DNA of 15,828 nt from a bacterium. GTDB lineage: Bacteria; CAIJMQ01; JAADFP01. The DNA is taken from the NCBI GenBank assembly GCA_027021085.1, contig JALUVB010000043.1:1-15828 (forward strand), written 5' to 3'. This document shows positions 7,621 to 15,825 of this stretch, piece by piece; positions within the stretch are counted from its first letter, which is position 1, and each line of letters opens with the position of its first letter. The notes under the pieces were generated by a model. The model searched no databases, was not told the origin of the DNA, and saw only the letters and a program-made list of their open reading frames with translations. The position numbers and the translations under genes were made by a program.

Positions 7621-7672
7621 GGAGAATCAATAGAGGAAAGTCGTAGAGTGCAGGGTGCGGAACTTCACCATA

Positions 7673-8800
7673 ATGGATAACAAAATTTTGCTCTTGGGTG
7701 AAAGTGCACGTTTTGACCGGGTAAGCAGTTTTTCAAAACGAGGTGAAAAGGGTATGGGAAAATGGGTTTACCCTGCCCTATTGCCGGATGGCAAAAGAGT
7801 CAACATTATGAAGGTTCTTATGGATAATAGATGTGAAAACAACTGCCTTTACTGCATGAATCGAAAAGATTCTCCCCTACCCCGCACTTACTTCCGTCCT
7901 GAAGAATTATCCAGGATTTTCCTGGAACTTTATCGCAAAAGGATTGTACAGGGCATTTTCCTGAGTTCTGCTACCGGGCCGGATCCCCTGATTACTTTGA
8001 AAAACATGATAAAAACATGCCAAATCCTGCGAGAAAAATATAGATTTACCGGTTATCTCCATTTGAAAATTCTGCCCTTCGCTCCCTTTTCCTACATAGA
8101 AGAAGCGATAAGCTTGGCAGACAGAGTATCTATAAACCTTGAATCTCCTAACGGGCACTGTCTCTCTGCCATAGCTCCTGATAAAAACTGGAGTAATCTC
8201 TGGGGTATTATCAAGGCAATGAAAGAAATTTCAGGGAGAAAACCTTCCTCCCGCGTGGGTATAACTACGCAATTTATAGTGGGGCCGGGTGGAGAGAAAG
8301 ATAAGGACCTGGTGTATCTTGCCTATAACCTGTATCGACATTACAAATTAAAACGAGTTTATTATAGTGCTTTTACTCCTTTGCCTTCCACCCCCCTGGG
8401 CAAGTACCCTTCTACTTCTCCCTTGAGAGAGTATCGCCTGTATCAGGTAGATGCTCTCATTCGCTATTATGGTTTCTCTTCCGAAGAAATACCCTTTGAA
8501 GAAGGTAATCTTAATCTGAGTACTGACCCTAAACTTCTCTGGGCACTAAGGCATCCTGAATTATTTCCCGTGGAGGTAAACAAAGCTTCTTTTGCCACTC
8601 TTATCAGAATCCCCGGGATAGGTCCTGCAGGAGCGCAAAAAATTATTAAAAGAAGGATAAAGGAAAAGATAAGGAATGAGGAAGATTTAAAAGGTTTGCG
8701 CATACAGAGCAAAAGAGCGCTTCCATTTCTTCTTTTGGATGGGAGAGTTCTACGAAAGAAAACTTATAGTAAAAATCTTCTTCCGTTTCTTCGGGATTAA
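7673..8800 (+). CDS. Putative DNA modification/repair radical-SAM protein with C-terminal HhH motif
   Basis: The protein matches the radical-SAM family usually found beside a uracil-DNA-glycosylase-like partner and proposed to act in DNA modification or repair. From the ATG at 7673 (375 residues) it starts MDNKILLLGESARFD, as family members do. The cluster motif is CENNCLYC (Cys54, Cys58, Cys61). Typical family stretches follow: IFLSSATGPDPL, YTGYLHLKIL-like FTGYLHLKIL, VYYSAFTPLP and ALRHPELFPVEVNKA. A helix-hairpin-helix, RIPGIGPAGAQKI, near residue 310 suggests DNA contact. A GTG at 7655 would add six residues; neither start has a clear Shine-Dalgarno. The usual glycosylase-like partner gene is not beside it here. 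Family assignment is strong; the reaction is not known. Confidence 0.85.
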   Translation: MDNKILLLGESARFDRVSSFSKRGEKGMGKWVYPALLPDGKRVNIMKVLMDNRCENNCLYCMNRKDSPLPRTYFRPEELSRIFLELYRKRIVQGIFLSSATGPDPLITLKNMIKTCQILREKYRFTGYLHLKILPFAPFSYIEEAISLADRVSINLESPNGHCLSAIAPDKNWSNLWGIIKAMKEISGRKPSSRVGITTQFIVGPGGEKDKDLVYLAYNLYRHYKLKRVYYSAFTPLPSTPLGKYPSTSPLREYRLYQVDALIRYYGFSSEEIPFEEGNLNLSTDPKLLWALRHPELFPVEVNKASFATLIRIPGIGPAGAQKIIKRRIKEKIRNEEDLKGLRIQSKRALPFLLLDGRVLRKKTYSKNLLPFLRD

Positions 8801-9315: not shown

Positions 9316-9588
9316 ATGGGTAGTTTAATCGGCGGCATGATAGCCGTGGTTTTGGGAATTTGGGGAATAATAGGTTGGTGGGGTTGGTTTTTAAGGATTT
9401 TAATGGGCTCTATTCCTTTCCTTCTTCTTCTGGGCGGTGCAATAGCTATATTTGGTGGCATTACTTCTATCAAGGACCAGATTGCAGCTAAGAAGGAAGA
9501 AGAGAAGATACAAGAGGAAGAGATAAGAGAAGAGGAAAAGAAGAAAGAAAAAAAAGAGAAGGGTGCGGAAGATAAAAAGAAAGAATAG
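9316..9588 (+). CDS. Small two-helix membrane protein with long charged tail
   Basis: The ATG has a textbook ribosome site, AAGGAGGTG (9301-9309), and lies about 20 bases after the predicted transcription start. Residues 2-27 and 30-50 are two hydrophobic helices rich in Gly and Trp, joined by a one-turn loop (WWGWFLRILMGS). The motif GGITSIKDQ follows. Residues 55-90 are almost only Lys and Glu and should form a charged helix or coiled coil in the cytoplasm. The family is unknown to me. The layout of two short helices, WW and a terminal GxxSIK recalls MamI-like small membrane proteins, but that is a weak resemblance and the charged tail is extra. Promoter, ribosome site and terminator suggest strong expression as a single gene. 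Confidence 0.75.
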   Translation: MGSLIGGMIAVVLGIWGIIGWWGWFLRILMGSIPFLLLLGGAIAIFGGITSIKDQIAAKKEEEKIQEEEIREEEKKKEKKEKGAEDKKKE

Positions 9589-10681
9589 TAATTGGTATAG
9601 AGACAGGAAAAGGGGGCATGGAGAAGCCCCCTTTTTTATTTTTATTTTTATTTTTCTCCTGTTCAATCTCCTCCAGGCAGAAGAAGCAATTGTTGTCAAG
9701 ATAGTAAAAGCGGAGGGAAGTGTCGAGGTTCTTCTTCCCGGAGAAAAAGAGTGGAAGGAATGCCGGAAGGGAGATATCCTCTCTCCGGGAAGCGAAATAA
9801 AAACAGGAGAAAATTCCAGAGCTATTATAAAGTTTGCTGACTTTGGAGTTATCACTCTTTTTCCCAACTCCAGGTTGAAATTGAAGAGTTACTCCCTGAA
9901 AGAAAATATGTATAAATCCTCAGTGTTTTTCTCTGCAGGTAAGATATGGACTGTTATCAAAAAACCTTCTGTAAAGGGAACCAATTTTATTCTTGAGACA
10001 CCAAATGCTCTGACTGGTGTGCGAGGAACCACCTATTTTGTGAAGTATATTCCGCAACAGGAATTTACCCGTGTAGGGGTAATAGAAGGGGAAGTGGGAG
10101 TAAAGGGGAAGGGAAAGATTCCCGGCTATGTTCTGGTTAAATCTATGATGGCTACTAACATAGTAAAAAATGAGCCGCCCGCTTCTTTAGAGAAGCTAAG
10201 GGAAGCGGAAATAAAAGAATGGCAGAAGTGGAAGGAAGACCTGCAGAAAGCAGTTCCGTTATGGGCAAAAGGAATAGTGGGAGCTATGGCAGGGATGGAT
10301 GAGTCCAGAAGAGTGGAAGCAGCAATGACGGTAAAGAAAATATCCATGGCGAAAAGAGGAGGAAAGAAAGCCAGAGAAGATTTCTGGGGTTTTGAGGCAG
10401 CAATAAAACAGTTCTTTAAAGATACTGGGCGAATTCCCACCCGGCAAGAGGGACTAAAGGTTCTCCTGGAAAACGAGGGAATAGAGGGCTGGAATGGCCC
10501 GTATCTTGCTCCTTCCAGTAACCTGCTGGATCCTTATGGGCATCCCTACCAGTATCGGGTCAAGAAAACTCCCCGGGGGTCACGATACATAGAAATACGT
10601 TCGGTGGGAGTGGATGGTATTGCAGGGAGTAATGATGACCATATCAAGCTAATTTTCCTGAAAAAACTCCGAGCTAAATGA
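9563..10681 (+). CDS. Secreted FecR-domain protein with GspG-like pseudopilin C-terminus
   Basis: The open frame begins at GTG 9563 and overlaps the previous gene by 26 bases, but this start has no well-spaced ribosome site. Numbered from there: a basic stretch, a hydrophobic signal-peptide core FFIFIFIFLLFNLL (24-37) with cleavage likely at LQA-EEA, a FecR domain (about 43-180, with KAEGSVEVL, GDILSPGSEI, TPNALTGVRGTTYFVKY and VIEGEVGV), a charged helical linker, and a C-terminal domain (about 270-360). The last matches the globular part of type II secretion major pseudopilins: KDTGRIPTRQEGL, WNGPYL, DPYGHPYQYR and SVGVDGIAGSNDD. The N-terminal prepilin peptidase motif is absent, so it is not a processed pilin. 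It should act in the periplasm or envelope. The stop overlaps the CHASE2 kinase start (ATGA), implying coupling. The true start is unresolved: a well-placed ATG at 9618 is one frame off. Confidence 0.85.
   Translation: MRKIKRKNSNWYRDRKRGHGEAPFFIFIFIFLLFNLLQAEEAIVVKIVKAEGSVEVLLPGEKEWKECRKGDILSPGSEIKTGENSRAIIKFADFGVITLFPNSRLKLKSYSLKENMYKSSVFFSAGKIWTVIKKPSVKGTNFILETPNALTGVRGTTYFVKYIPQQEFTRVGVIEGEVGVKGKGKIPGYVLVKSMMATNIVKNEPPASLEKLREAEIKEWQKWKEDLQKAVPLWAKGIVGAMAGMDESRRVEAAMTVKKISMAKRGGKKAREDFWGFEAAIKQFFKDTGRIPTRQEGLKVLLENEGIEGWNGPYLAPSSNLLDPYGHPYQYRVKKTPRGSRYIEIRSVGVDGIAGSNDDHIKLIFLKKLRAK
9608..9637 (+). terminator. Strong intrinsic terminator overlapping the next gene's start
   Basis: AAAAGGGGGC (9608-9617) pairs perfectly with GCCCCCTTTT (9626-9635) around an eight-base loop, and six T residues (9632-9637) follow the G-C part. 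This is a classic rho-independent terminator 20 bases after the stop of the small membrane protein. Unusually, its loop contains an ATG (9618-9620) and it lies inside the reading frame of the FecR-GspG gene, so it could also limit transcription or translation of that gene. Confidence 0.85.
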
Positions 10682-12579
10682 GGAGGATTGTTTCCCGCTA
10701 TTTTCTAAGCGGGATAATCAGCGGGGTATTCTCTATTTTCCTGATCCTGTTATTGGGAAAGTCAGGAGCACTTAATTTCTTTTCCGGGAATTACCTGGAT
10801 TTCTTATTTGAGCTCAGGGGGGAAAGGAAACCTGGTAATGTAGTAATCATAAGCATTGACGAGGAGACCTTAAGAGGCCTACAGAAAACCTGGCCTATTC
10901 CCCGTTATTACTATGCACAATTAATCCGACAGATTGCTTCCCCGGAAGTAAAAGGTATAGGTGTGGATATCCTCTTTCTTGATTCTGCCGAAAAAGAGGC
11001 AGACAGGAAATTAGAGAAGGTCTTAATTAGTGCTCCTGTTGTATTAGCGGCGAAATTTGAAAAAGAAAGGAGAAAGATAGCAGGAATAGAAATAGAAAAA
11101 TTTTTTCTTGCCACTCCAGCAGAGGTTTTTCCCCGGGTGAATTGGGGATTCATAAATCTCCCCATGGACAGAGACAACAATATTAGAAGAGTGATTTTAA
11201 GAGAACGCTGGGAAAATATGGAAGTGCCTTCTTTTGCCCTATCCTTATACAAAATGGCAGGAAGAGATTTTGTTCCCTCTCACCATCCTTATCTTATTAA
11301 TTTCTACGGGGGGAGCGGAACATTCCCTACTTTTTCTTTCTACAGCGTGTTGAAAGGGGAAGTAAATCCCGGGTATTTCAAAAATAAATTTATTCTCATT
11401 GGGGTTGGTATTCCCGAAGCCCATGACTATTTTCTTACTCCATTCAAAAGCGAGTCCCTCATGTCAGGGGTAGAAATTCAGGCTAATATCCTGGAAAATA
11501 TTTCGAAGGGAGAATTTTTAAAAGAGTCTAATCCCACTGCTATTCTCATTGTTAACATTATATCTGCCTGCATGGCCGTAGCAGCGTCCTTGCTGCTCTC
11601 TACTATCTTGGGAGGAGCTTCTCTGGTTGTTTTTGCTTTTTTGCTTTTCGTTCTTTCCATATATTTTTTTGCAGGAAGAAACTATTTTTGGGATATCTCC
11701 CCTACTCTTTTGTCCTATTTAATTACCTATACATTTACTTCATTTACTCTAAAAGTGCGCATATTTACTTCCCCGGTGCTGGGAAAGTACAGGTTGGTGG
11801 AAGAAATAGGCAGAGGGGGTATGGCAGTAGTATATAGGGCATTAAGAAGGGGGAGAAGGAAATTTGTTGCTCTAAAAGTTTTACAGGAATCTTTTTCGCA
11901 TGACCCTGTATTCTTGCAAAGATTTCGCAGGGAAGTAGAGGCAGTAAAGGCTCTTGAGCATCCGAATATTGTAAAGATATATGAAGCGGGCAGTGAGGAA
12001 GATAAGTATTTCTTTTCCATGGAGTTTTTGAGGGGGAAGAGCCTTGATGATTACCTTAAAGAAAAAGGGAAATTAGAAGAAGCCGAAGCACTTGCCATTC
12101 TGACAGGAATAGCAAAGGGATTGCAACATGCTCATAACAAAGGAATAATCCATAGGGACCTTAAGCCGGGGAATGTTATACTGACTTCCCAGGGGCCCAA
12201 AATTGTGGACTTCGGGCTGGCAAGGGATCTTTCCAGCCAGGCCACCCGGGTAACTGTCACGGGAACGATGATGGGAACACCTGAGTATATGGCGCCTGAA
12301 CAATTCAGGGGAGAAGAGACCGATGAAAGAACAGATATTTACGCCCTGGGAGTGGTCTTTTATGAGATGCTTAAAGGTTCTCCTCCTTTCCAGGGTGAAA
12401 ACCTGGGAGAGATAATGAATCTTCATCTCTGGGAGGAAGCAGATACTTCTGGATTAAGGGAAGAGGTAAAGGCTATTATAAATAAGATGTTAGCCAAGAA
12501 TAAAGAGGAACGGTTTCAAAATATGGGAGAAGTGATTGAGAGATTGGAGATGGTAGTTAGTAGTGAGGGGAAAAGATAG
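10678..12579 (+). CDS. CHASE2-domain transmembrane Ser/Thr protein kinase
   Basis: The ATG overlaps the upstream stop (ATGA). Residues 10-30 are a first membrane helix. A CHASE2 sensor domain follows (about 38-280), with NYLDFLFELRG, VVIISIDEETL, WPIPRYYYAQLI and GVDILFLD, and would lie in the periplasm. About three membrane helices follow (290-355). The cytoplasmic kinase spans about 370-628: glycine loop GRGGMAVVYRA, ATP-binding Lys400 (VALKVL), catalytic HRDLKPGN with Asp494, DFG at 511-513, GTPEYMAPEQ and DIYALGVVFYEM. All catalytic residues are present, so it should be an active Hanks-type kinase. The protein ends directly after the kinase. FecR genes next to CHASE2 proteins are a known pairing, so the coupled FecR-GspG protein is probably a periplasmic partner. 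The substrate is unknown; an FHA protein lies downstream. Confidence 0.95.
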   Translation: MRRIVSRYFLSGIISGVFSIFLILLLGKSGALNFFSGNYLDFLFELRGERKPGNVVIISIDEETLRGLQKTWPIPRYYYAQLIRQIASPEVKGIGVDILFLDSAEKEADRKLEKVLISAPVVLAAKFEKERRKIAGIEIEKFFLATPAEVFPRVNWGFINLPMDRDNNIRRVILRERWENMEVPSFALSLYKMAGRDFVPSHHPYLINFYGGSGTFPTFSFYSVLKGEVNPGYFKNKFILIGVGIPEAHDYFLTPFKSESLMSGVEIQANILENISKGEFLKESNPTAILIVNIISACMAVAASLLLSTILGGASLVVFAFLLFVLSIYFFAGRNYFWDISPTLLSYLITYTFTSFTLKVRIFTSPVLGKYRLVEEIGRGGMAVVYRALRRGRRKFVALKVLQESFSHDPVFLQRFRREVEAVKALEHPNIVKIYEAGSEEDKYFFSMEFLRGKSLDDYLKEKGKLEEAEALAILTGIAKGLQHAHNKGIIHRDLKPGNVILTSQGPKIVDFGLARDLSSQATRVTVTGTMMGTPEYMAPEQFRGEETDERTDIYALGVVFYEMLKGSPPFQGENLGEIMNLHLWEEADTSGLREEVKAIINKMLAKNKEERFQNMGEVIERLEMVVSSEGKR

Positions 12580-12782: not shown

Positions 12783-14324
12783 ATGAAGCTGGTTATTAAA
12801 GAAAAAGATAAAAAACCCCGCGAAATAGACCTGGAAAGAAAGGCCTATGTAATTGGCCGGGATGCTGCCTGTGATATTATAATTTCAGATAATCGTGTAT
12901 CCTCACGTCACCTTTTTCTTACCCCACGAGGAGAAGGATGGTGGGTAAGGGATCTTGGCTCGACAAATGGAACATTTATTAACGGCAGACAGGTATCCGT
13001 ATCTCCTCTCCGGGAAGGGGATGTGCTGAAGATTGGCCACACAATATTAACTTTAGGGATACCACCTTCTTCTGTTCCGCGTGCGTCTTCTCCCACACAG
13101 TTAACCACGCGGGTAGAGATTGTTCCTTCCCCCCCTTCTACGCTGGAAGAAGCCAAAAAAGTTCACCGCCATCTGGAAGTTCTCTGTGAGGTAAGCAGGG
13201 TGCTTAATTCTTTGCTTACCGTGAAAGAAGCACTGCAAAAAACCATGGATTTAATCTTTCAGGTTTTGCGAGCAGATAGAGGGGTTATATTCCTCGAGGA
13301 TAACGGTACACTGAAGATAACGGCTGAGAGAAGAAGAAGCGATGATGTGTCTCCCTTACAAATAAGCCACAGTATTGTAGACGAAGTTTTTAAGGGTGAA
13401 GAATCTGTGCTTACCTCTGATGCTATGGAAGATACGCGTTTCCGTAACCGTGCCAGTGTTGTTTCTTCTCATATACATTCTGCCATGTGTGTTCCTTTGA
13501 AAGGAAAAGAAAGAAACCTGGGAGTCATTTATGTGGATACACTCCTTTCAAAAGGAGCTTTCCAGGAAGAAGATTTGGAGCTCCTCACAGTTATTGGCCA
13601 TCAGGCAGGCATGGCTATTGAAAATGCACATCTGTATGAGGAGAACCTCAAAAGGGAAAAATTGGCAGGTATAGGGATGGCTATTGCAGGCATGGCTCAC
13701 TATGTAAAAAATATCATCCAGGGTTTGAAAGGCGGAGGGACCCTGGTTGACCTGGGAATGAACGAGAAGAAACCGGTACTATTACAAAAAGGATGGGAGG
13801 TGGTAAAAAGAGCTGTGGCGCGTATAGAAGACCTTATTATGAATATGCTTACCTACTCTAAGGAAAGAGAGCCTGTTAAAAAACCCACCCAGTTAAATGA
13901 ACTGATAAAAGAGATACTCGAACTTTTCCAGGTTAAGCTGAAAGAACATAAAATCCTGGTGGAAGCTAACCTGGACCCGGAAATAAATGAAGTTATGATT
14001 GACTCACAGGCAATTCATCGCGCTATCCTCAATCTTCTTACCAATGCCATAGAAGCTGTGGAAGAAAATGGAAAGATAACTTTTTCCACCTCTCGCGTTC
14101 CCAGAGGAATAGAAATAAAAGTGTCAGATACAGGGAAAGGCATTCCGAAAGATATTCTTCCCCAACTTTTTACCCCTTTCACCTCAGGCAAGGGCATGGA
14201 AGGCACTGGCCTGGGATTGGCTGTTACCCACAAAATTATCCAGGAACACGGAGGGGAAATAAGAGTGGAATCCAAGATAAATCGCGGGACTACATTTACT
14301 ATCTTTCTTCCCTTTACTTCCTGA
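12783..14324 (+). CDS. FHA-GAF sensor histidine kinase
   Basis: The ATG lacks a Shine-Dalgarno and may be leaderless. Residues 1-95 are an FHA domain, which binds phosphothreonine; the ligand-site residues are present (Gly25-Arg26, Ser40 and His43 in RVSSRH, and STNGT with Asn62). A GAF domain follows (about 128-285, ending GMAIENAHLYEEN). The H-box is GMAHYVKNIIQGLKGG with His306, and the HATPase has NLLTNAIEA, DTGKGIP and GTGLGLAV. It is soluble. Because a Ser/Thr kinase gene precedes it, phosphothreonine-dependent recruitment or activation is plausible. No response regulator is adjacent; the NtrC-type and HD-GYP regulators upstream in the window are possible partners. Domain assignment is secure; the link to the Ser/Thr kinase is inferred from position and domain chemistry. 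Confidence 0.93.
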   Translation: MKLVIKEKDKKPREIDLERKAYVIGRDAACDIIISDNRVSSRHLFLTPRGEGWWVRDLGSTNGTFINGRQVSVSPLREGDVLKIGHTILTLGIPPSSVPRASSPTQLTTRVEIVPSPPSTLEEAKKVHRHLEVLCEVSRVLNSLLTVKEALQKTMDLIFQVLRADRGVIFLEDNGTLKITAERRRSDDVSPLQISHSIVDEVFKGEESVLTSDAMEDTRFRNRASVVSSHIHSAMCVPLKGKERNLGVIYVDTLLSKGAFQEEDLELLTVIGHQAGMAIENAHLYEENLKREKLAGIGMAIAGMAHYVKNIIQGLKGGGTLVDLGMNEKKPVLLQKGWEVVKRAVARIEDLIMNMLTYSKEREPVKKPTQLNELIKEILELFQVKLKEHKILVEANLDPEINEVMIDSQAIHRAILNLLTNAIEAVEENGKITFSTSRVPRGIEIKVSDTGKGIPKDILPQLFTPFTSGKGMEGTGLGLAVTHKIIQEHGGEIRVESKINRGTTFTIFLPFTS

Positions 14325-14343: not shown

Positions 14344-15270
14344 ATGAAAAAAGTTCTAATTCTACGCTGGGGCACACTGGGAGATTTAGTGCTTACCTTC
14401 CCCATCCTTTACACGCTCAAACAAGAAGGCTTTGAAGTAAACCTTTTCACCCGCGGCAATTTGCTTAACCTTGCCCGGGAGCTTGGCCTTGTCAATGGAG
14501 GGGAGGCGATGGACTCTCTAAAACTTCTGCCCCTTTTTTCCGGTAATCCCCTACCCCCTGGTTTAAGAGAATTCATAAACTCACACGACTTTGTTATCTC
14601 CTATGCACCATCCCGGGACAGGGTGAATTGCATCCTCGCCGGAATTTTAAAAGAACGGCTGCTTACCTTACCCGTGGATAGAACCACACTTTCCTCTCAC
14701 CTAACAGAATGCTTATTTGAACCTGTTAAAAAACTGGGGGGAGAAAGAATCATTCCTTTTCCCGGCATATGGAAAAATAGTGGGAATGCCATCCTCATTC
14801 ATCCGGGAAGTGGGGGGAAATGGAAAAGATGGCCTAAAGAAAAATTCCGTGTATTAATAAGTCTTCTCTTACCAGCGGGGAAAGTAAAAGTTATTTTAGG
14901 GGAAGCAGAAGCGAGAGAAATTTCTTACTGGGAGAAAACCTGTGAAGTGATATTTAATCCCTCTCTATCCCGGCTTAAACAGATTCTTTTGCAGGCAAAA
15001 ATTTTCCTGGGAAATGATTCCGGTGTGACTCACCTCTCTGCCTTTCTCGGAGTTCCCACCCTGGCTATTTTCGGGCCTACTTCTCCCCATATCTGGGGTC
15101 CCCAGGGTAAGAGAGTAAAGATAATTTACCGGGAATACCCCTGTTCTCCTTGTTCCGATACACAGAGAGAAAAATGCAGAGACTTCCCCTGCCTTCAGGA
15201 TATTTCAGCCGAAGATGTGGCTGAGATTATATCAGTCCTTTCTCCTTTAAAATCTCAAGGGAATCTCTAA
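14344..15270 (+). CDS. Glycosyltransferase family 9 (heptosyltransferase-like)
   Basis: This 308-residue protein belongs to the GT9 family, which transfers heptose from ADP-heptose to lipopolysaccharide core or related glycans. The N-terminal motif is ILRWGTLGDLVLTFPIL. The C-terminal half has the donor-site motifs IHPGSGGKWKRWP (about 152-164) and FLGNDSGVTHLSAFLGVP (about 222-239), then FGPTSPHIWGP. A Cys-rich stretch near the end (YPCSPCSDTQREKCRDFPC) is common in the family. It is probably cytosolic or membrane-associated at the inner leaflet. Length is slightly short for the family but complete. There is no Shine-Dalgarno before the ATG. The last 44 bases overlap the convergent minus-strand gene at 15227. 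The acceptor and exact sugar cannot be read from sequence, so waaF or waaC would be over-assignment. Confidence 0.9.
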   Translation: MKKVLILRWGTLGDLVLTFPILYTLKQEGFEVNLFTRGNLLNLARELGLVNGGEAMDSLKLLPLFSGNPLPPGLREFINSHDFVISYAPSRDRVNCILAGILKERLLTLPVDRTTLSSHLTECLFEPVKKLGGERIIPFPGIWKNSGNAILIHPGSGGKWKRWPKEKFRVLISLLLPAGKVKVILGEAEAREISYWEKTCEVIFNPSLSRLKQILLQAKIFLGNDSGVTHLSAFLGVPTLAIFGPTSPHIWGPQGKRVKIIYREYPCSPCSDTQREKCRDFPCLQDISAEDVAEIISVLSPLKSQGNL

Positions 15271-15562
15271 TAAATTCATGTAATTCTTTTTTTTCAGATG
15301 TAAATAAATGAGATTGTGGAGAGTTGAAAGGATGTTTGTGGTATCTACCTCCTTCGCCGTCAAAACCATATATTCTCTCATCCCCTACTACAAGAGCGAA
15401 ATTTAATTTCTCCTTTATGATATTTATATACACCTGGAAAAAGATTTGAGGGGTAAAGCCAAATCTTATCAAGGCTGTGTTTTCTGTTCTATCTATGAGA
15501 AAAACATCAAAACCATATTCGTAAGAAATCTGATAAATTTCATTGATAATACTATCAATCAA
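15227..15562 (-). CDS. Second gene of a toxin-antitoxin-like pair, unknown family
   Basis: The start is TTG at 15562, overlapping the upstream stop as TTGA, so translation is coupled to the 88-residue gene. The 111-residue product has a predicted mixed alpha/beta fold and a motif rich in aromatic and His residues, RIYGFDGEGGRYHKHPF (63-79), with Asp68, His75, His77 and His85. A helical tail follows (ELHEFIRDSLEILKE). The spacing of D and H residues loosely recalls TumE/DUF6516-type toxins, but I cannot confirm the family. The gene is AT-richer than its neighbours and opposite in strand, which suggests mobile origin. It converges on the glycosyltransferase gene and overlaps it by 44 bases. Confidence 0.65.
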   Translation of the reverse strand: MIDSIINEIYQISYEYGFDVFLIDRTENTALIRFGFTPQIFFQVYINIIKEKLNFALVVGDERIYGFDGEGGRYHKHPFNSPQSHLFTSEKKELHEFIRDSLEILKEKGLI

Positions 15563-15825
15563 AGCAATTTTTCAAGTTCTTGTATTTTTTTTAGATACGT
15601 TTTGATTCCATCTACTGCATGCTCCCATTCCATGGAATCCTTTTCTACCTCCCAGGAATAACCTTTCTTTTTGACGATATGAGAATTTTCAAAGGTGGCA
15701 AAATTCATCTTATATTTATTTTGTAACCGTTCGTCTGTCAGTCGATAAAGTATCAGTTTTCGTTTATACTCGTTTAGCAAAGCCTCTATAATTTCCTTCT
15801 CTGGTATTTTTTCTAATACTCTCAT
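15559..15825 (-). CDS. First gene of a toxin-antitoxin-like pair, antitoxin-like helical protein
   Basis: The first visible ATG is at 15825, three bases from the window edge, so the true start may lie outside. The 88 residues are highly charged and helical. A central region KYKMNFATFE...YSWEVEKDSMEWEHAV is followed by a coiled-coil-like tail (IKTYLKKIQELEKLL). This layout is common in small proteins encoded before putative toxins. The stop overlaps the next start by four bases (TTGA). Function is inferred from size, order and coupling only; I do not recognise a named family. Confidence 0.6.
   Translation of the reverse strand: MRVLEKIPEKEIIEALLNEYKRKLILYRLTDERLQNKYKMNFATFENSHIVKKKGYSWEVEKDSMEWEHAVDGIKTYLKKIQELEKLL

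Follow-up and report, generated by a model that had tools for sequence, protein, structure and literature searches.

The open reading frame at 9563-10681 (+) of the DNA analysed here (the window, 15,828 nucleotides) encodes a protein in which a FecR domain is fused to a GspG-like pseudopilin head, and iterated profile searches recovered 18 full-length fusions of this kind from four phylum-level groups, 12 of them encoded directly beside a CHASE2 sensor enzyme. A first-pass annotation of the same DNA had not recognised the FecR-GspG architecture as a described family and had raised its linkage to CHASE2 proteins across genomes; we likewise found no paper describing such a protein in the literature searched, and the search across genomes bore the linkage out. 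As a conserved fusion that usually lies beside a membrane sensor enzyme, the protein is probably a signalling input rather than a component of a secretion filament, and the reading we prefer, with somewhat better than even confidence, is that it is exported to the periplasm and provides the input of a CHASE2 signalling cassette of three parts. Few of the inputs of the widespread sensor domain CHASE2 are known, and the fusion offers a concrete candidate for what this domain reads, as well as documenting a GspG head in use outside the filament, with a single apparent origin.

Domains and start of the fusion protein

Counted from GTG, a start codon that is uncertain, the gene has 372 codons. Its sole segment of transmembrane-grade hydropathy is the hydrophobic core of a signal peptide, PFFIFIFIFLLFNLLQA (residues 23-39, 9629-9679, +), which directly precedes the FecR region; past the signal peptide, hydropathy gives no transmembrane-grade helix in the window protein (maximum KD19 0.97). 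The FecR domain (PF04773, residues 78-178, 9794-10096, +; E 7.1e-13, 49.3 bits, Pfam cut-off 24) is followed by an inter-domain segment predicted, at low confidence, to be helical (residues 206-262, 10178-10348, +) and by a T2SSG domain (PF08334, residues 268-360, 10364-10642, +; E 1.3e-15, 57.8 bits, Pfam cut-off 21). All four GspG motifs named in the first-pass annotation are found in the C-terminus. In a phmmer search of the PDB, the only structures to match this region above noise are those of GspG (2kep, 5wda, 1t92, 3gn9, 3g20, 29jd), with an alignment that is near gap-free through the loop SVGVDGIAGSNDD (residues 347-359, 10601-10639, +), and a profile of nine fusions ranks eight GspG chains at the top (best 6.9e-08). 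Compared as profiles, the 18 fusion heads match the genuine GspGs and related pilins of the same genomes with an hhalign probability of 99.3% (E 2.6e-19), confirming the earlier proposal that a FecR domain and a GspG-type domain share one reading frame.

Like GspG, PulG and EpsG (TIGR01710, PF08334), the fusion has a globular head with the EGL, WxGPY and DPxGxPYxY motifs and, in part of the family, the calcium loop. Unlike them, it is joined to FecR, forms a separate clade and lacks both the N-terminal hydrophobic helix and the prepilin peptidase site (G[F..][ST]xxE followed by a hydrophobic stretch), which is absent from all 18 fusions, as had been noted earlier for the window protein. The NCBIfam GspG equivalog model TIGR01710 gives the window protein 38 bits, far under its cut-off of 88.85, and we thus speak of a GspG-like domain and not of GspG. 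In a global hhalign alignment the inter-domain segment falls opposite the pilin N-terminal helix, the two being nearly equal in length, whereas the local alignment ends at the head. AlphaFold2, run on the window and near-identical L003 sequences only, reached a pLDDT of 44 for the C-terminal part and 40 for nearly the full length. Foldseek and VIA-align list no pilin for the pLDDT-44 model, whose confidence is too low to bear on the fold; the order of elements in this low-confidence model, helices and then strands, is that of the pilin/GspG fold.

Relative to the sister genome, dN/dS (computed dN divided by computed dS) comes to about 0.10 in the FecR domain, 0.07 in the inter-domain segment and about 0.06 in the GspG head, indicating that the head is under purifying selection. 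An assembly or frame-merging artefact is ruled out by the 18 full-length copies in 18 genomes together with a dN/dS of 0.08 over residues 38-372.

The GTG at 9563 is a doubtful start, since it overlaps the 3' end of the upstream gene, since the stretch coding for the predicted N-terminus contains a terminator-like hairpin of 12 pairs with its T-tract, GGAAAAGGGGGCATGGAGAAGCCCCCTTTTTT (9606-9637, +), and since differences from the sister genome in this stretch show no third-position bias (8/2/8 by codon position); over residues 38-372 such differences fall chiefly on third positions (18/16/96). The true start is probably within about 9563-9660, and the mature protein is unaffected by the choice. 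This strong hairpin has a counterpart in the sister genome. The upstream gene itself (9316-9588, +), found at the same place in G001 and G002, encodes a small hydrophobic, MamI-like membrane protein that matches the magnetosome MamI model at E 3e-11 and 43 bits (cut-off 80), and counterparts occur at L036 5007-5303 and L004 2588-2992 (-); its membership of the cassette is uncertain.

Distribution and origin of the family

Among 60 relatives searched, full-length copies were present within the genus (89%), elsewhere in the family (58%) and in the distant genome G030 (33%). In a wider sample, which took about one genome per family over most of the tree and came to a few hundred, the fusions belong to the phylum of the window (G000, G001, G002), to the phylum of G030 (G030, G060 and G061, all three genomes sampled there), to one phylum of 35 genomes (G268, G386, G132, G399, G400, G402, G404, G405, G389, G413, G417) and to a fourth group (G083); G412 holds a fusion fragment additional to the 18 full-length copies. 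The matches listed by name in a plasmid search were ordinary GspGs.

In a maximum-likelihood tree whose comparison rows were a limited sample of 23 genuine GspGs and pilins from the same groups, all 18 fusion heads fall on one side of a 100/100 branch, apart from these rows. This single clade favours one origin for the GspG domain of the fusion, judged from its sequence relationships. Repeated independent fusions are unsupported, given the one clade, set against those 23 rows only, and a conserved inter-domain segment, whose mean pairwise identity is 51% when the 15 members from the other phylum-level groups than that of G030 are compared.

The CHASE2 neighbourhood and a proposed cassette

Downstream of the fusion, and with a start that overlaps its stop, lies a gene for a CHASE2 sensor with a Ser/Thr protein kinase domain (10678-12579, +), followed by an FHA-GAF-histidine kinase assigned from its domain matches (12783-14324, +) and a family 9 glycosyltransferase (GT9, 14344-15270, +). 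The sister-family genome G002 has the same order of fusion, CHASE2-kinase, FHA-GAF-histidine kinase and glycosyltransferase, its kinase genes being confirmed and its glycosyltransferase, a similar gene at the same place, being assigned by position and sequence only. In G083 the fusion is followed by a CHASE2-kinase, and the 35-genome phylum mostly shows GAF-histidine kinase, CHASE2-cyclase and fusion in that order, in overlapping or closely spaced frames. The partner, whose output domain is either a Ser/Thr kinase or an adenylate/guanylate cyclase, directly adjoins 12 of the 15 fusions outside the G030 phylum; in G417 it belongs to the same four-gene run without directly adjoining, and in G399 and G413 the neighbourhood is cut by contig ends, with a GAF-kinase/CHASE2 pair of G399 running off the end of another contig. 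By a rough estimate, chance adjacency would be expected in about 0.2% of genomes (1-3 CHASE2 genes per ~2,000 genes). CHASE2 is also present in 18/18 genomes with the fusion and in 19/32 others of the same groups, and within three genera (g130, g331 and g81) genomes have either both fusion and CHASE2 or neither, although neither comparison is phylogenetically independent. Against a partnership stand the fusions of G030, G060 and G061, whose neighbours are genes for a glycerate kinase and for a Zn-ribbon protein and whose genomes encode CHASE2 elsewhere, and the general point that gene adjacency is not interaction.

A third gene, for a GAF-kinase, shares the operon of the fusion in the window, G002, G268, G132, G389, G417, G400, G386, G402 and G405. 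In its GAF-kinase part, the FHA-GAF-histidine kinase of the window is 33-40% identical to the cyclase-type GAF-histidine kinases over 324-404 residues (192-231 bits), compared with 91-104 bits for two further histidine kinases encoded in the window against the G268 protein. FHA domains are phosphothreonine readers. Where the CHASE2 enzyme is a Ser/Thr kinase, an FHA domain is found on the histidine kinase itself (window, G002) or on a separate neighbouring protein (G083), and none is found on the nine cyclase-type GAF-kinases; this pattern, seen in few lineages, is our main ground for suggesting a signal from the kinase to the FHA protein.

We propose that the fusion is a Sec-exported, soluble subunit, probably periplasmic or facing the envelope, in which FecR and the pseudopilin head would jointly form a binding module. 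The membrane enzyme encoded next to the fusion may read the state of this module with its periplasmic CHASE2 domain, through a putative contact and in a presumed direction from fusion to enzyme, and its cytoplasmic domain would relay the signal, as a Ser/Thr kinase in the window and as an adenylate/guanylate cyclase in other lineages. In the kinase versions, the FHA-bearing GAF protein of the cassette could then receive the signal through phosphothreonine recognition, a putative phospho-relay, and the GspG head, having given up filament assembly, would act as an adaptor or recognition domain. The suggestion made earlier, that the pilin fold is reused as a periplasmic binding or sensing module, stands in so far as a GspG head is reused outside the filament and linked to CHASE2, with 12 direct adjacencies and the shared cluster of G417, and fails as regards calcium as a common ligand.

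The closest published arrangement, which the window type resembles by analogy, is the biofilm-linked BiofilmReg operon of Burkholderia, consisting of a response regulator, a LysM-FecR protein and a CHASE2 histidine kinase (PMC5192318). As in BiofilmReg and PA4035-type LysM-FecR proteins (COG4254), an exported FecR protein with an accessory domain is encoded directly before a CHASE2 enzyme on the same strand. The accessory domain there is LysM and the output a histidine kinase with a separate response regulator; in the window type the pseudopilin head (T2SSG) would take the place of LysM, Pkinase or Guanylate_cyc stands in place of the histidine kinase, and a GAF-kinase is the third gene. In Sinorhizobium meliloti, a protein signal acts on the CHASE2 cyclases CyaD1, CyaD2 and CyaK by way of an outer-membrane protein (PMC13001267), likewise an envelope protein input, and a FecR-domain protein, SMc02177, has been studied with the Clr regulon that these cyclases drive; no GspG domain is reported in that system. 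The gene smc02177 is reported to be dispensable for perceiving the plant signal (PMC5498481), which weighs against a FecR protein as CHASE2 input. The FecR domain (PF04773) is also shared with FecI-FecR iron-citrate signalling, and its name does not imply an iron role at the window locus: no TonB receptor, ECF sigma factor or cytoplasmic anti-sigma segment is found there, and with no sigma factor or receptor nearby an iron-citrate system is ruled out.

Taken with these systems, the cassette looks like a signalling module with swapped parts, FecR occurring with GspG, LysM, vWA or nothing, and kinases occurring with FHA and cyclases without. By its domain content, an operon of G030 (L158 2664-9841), encoding vWA-FecR, CHASE2-(weak cyclase match)-Ser/Thr kinase and FHA-GAF-cyclase proteins, is another FecR-CHASE2 variant in a distant phylum. 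A FecR-only protein, a large protein and a CHASE2 protein follow one another in the same order in two lineages (L040 5835-12001 and L124 5355-12001), the large protein of L040 being clostripain-like and its CHASE2 protein a cyclase. The genome of the window has a second CHASE2 protein, fused to an HD domain (HD_5; L161 3381-5711), and no FecR gene of the fusion's type lies beside it in the stretch read.

Alternative roles and further genes

The pseudopilin head might instead dock on the machinery of type II secretion or of type IV filaments, and the cassette would then inform the CHASE2 enzyme of the status of secretion or of the filament. By Pfam and hhalign the head clearly derives from GspG, and of 21 genomes checked all encode secretins and 19 a genuine GspG over the curated cut-off, the two exceptions being 54% and 64% complete. 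Yet the relatives G003-G005 carry a genuine GspG and no fusion, so that co-occurrence is unspecific and does not discriminate for or against contact with the secretion system. The genuine GspG of the window genome is encoded at G000:C155, followed by reading frames whose N-termini are of prepilin type and whose order is the one expected for gspHIJK, whereas the window fusion lies in a signalling cluster and none of the fusions found was seen in a T2SS operon. Moreover, the heads form a separate, diverged clade and, without the N-terminal helix, cannot enter a filament in the known way. We therefore regard a secretion-monitoring role as possible and unlikely, and its more specific form, in which a domesticated pseudopilin head would let the CHASE2 enzyme sense T2SS or type IV filament assembly or activity and convert it into cAMP/cGMP or Ser/Thr phosphorylation, as improbable.

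It is quite improbable that the fusion serves the envelope as a structural or adhesion protein and only travels with the CHASE2 cassette. FecR domains do occur in surface proteins, models for LipL45 and Lsa33 match the FecR part of the fusion, and the fusions of the G030 phylum are not beside CHASE2; the direct adjacencies and the joint presence or absence in three genera nevertheless fit a functional partner better.

The first-pass annotation had brought in calcium from Asp residues at the GspG calcium site. Those residues are indeed in place in the window protein. In the 3G20 loop, PGPDGVPNTEDD, calcium is held by the side chains of D117, T122 and D125 and by two main-chain oxygens (PMC3396595), and the window loop (GVDGIAGSNDD) has identical spacing, with D351, S356 and D359 of SVGVDGIAGSNDD at these three positions, making calcium binding by the window protein plausible from its sequence. 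The GxD...DD pattern is kept in the window, G001, G002, G030, G060, G061, G083 and G417, and the loop Asp residues are lost in 10/18 fusions, comprising nearly all of the cyclase-linked group, so that calcium binding cannot be a family-wide function. That the fusion is a periplasmic calcium sensor whose loop gates CHASE2 is thus very unlikely, even with ligand positions matched in the window, the more so as GspG itself is described as requiring calcium for its function or stability, and not as a regulatory signal.

Elsewhere in the window, two small overlapping genes (15227-15562 and 15559-15825, both -) have a toxin-antitoxin-like arrangement and gave no convincing Pfam, NCBIfam or PADLOC family. 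The radical SAM protein at 7655-8800 (+) comes near TIGR03916, a putative DNA modification/repair family, with 302 bits against a cut-off of 343.5.
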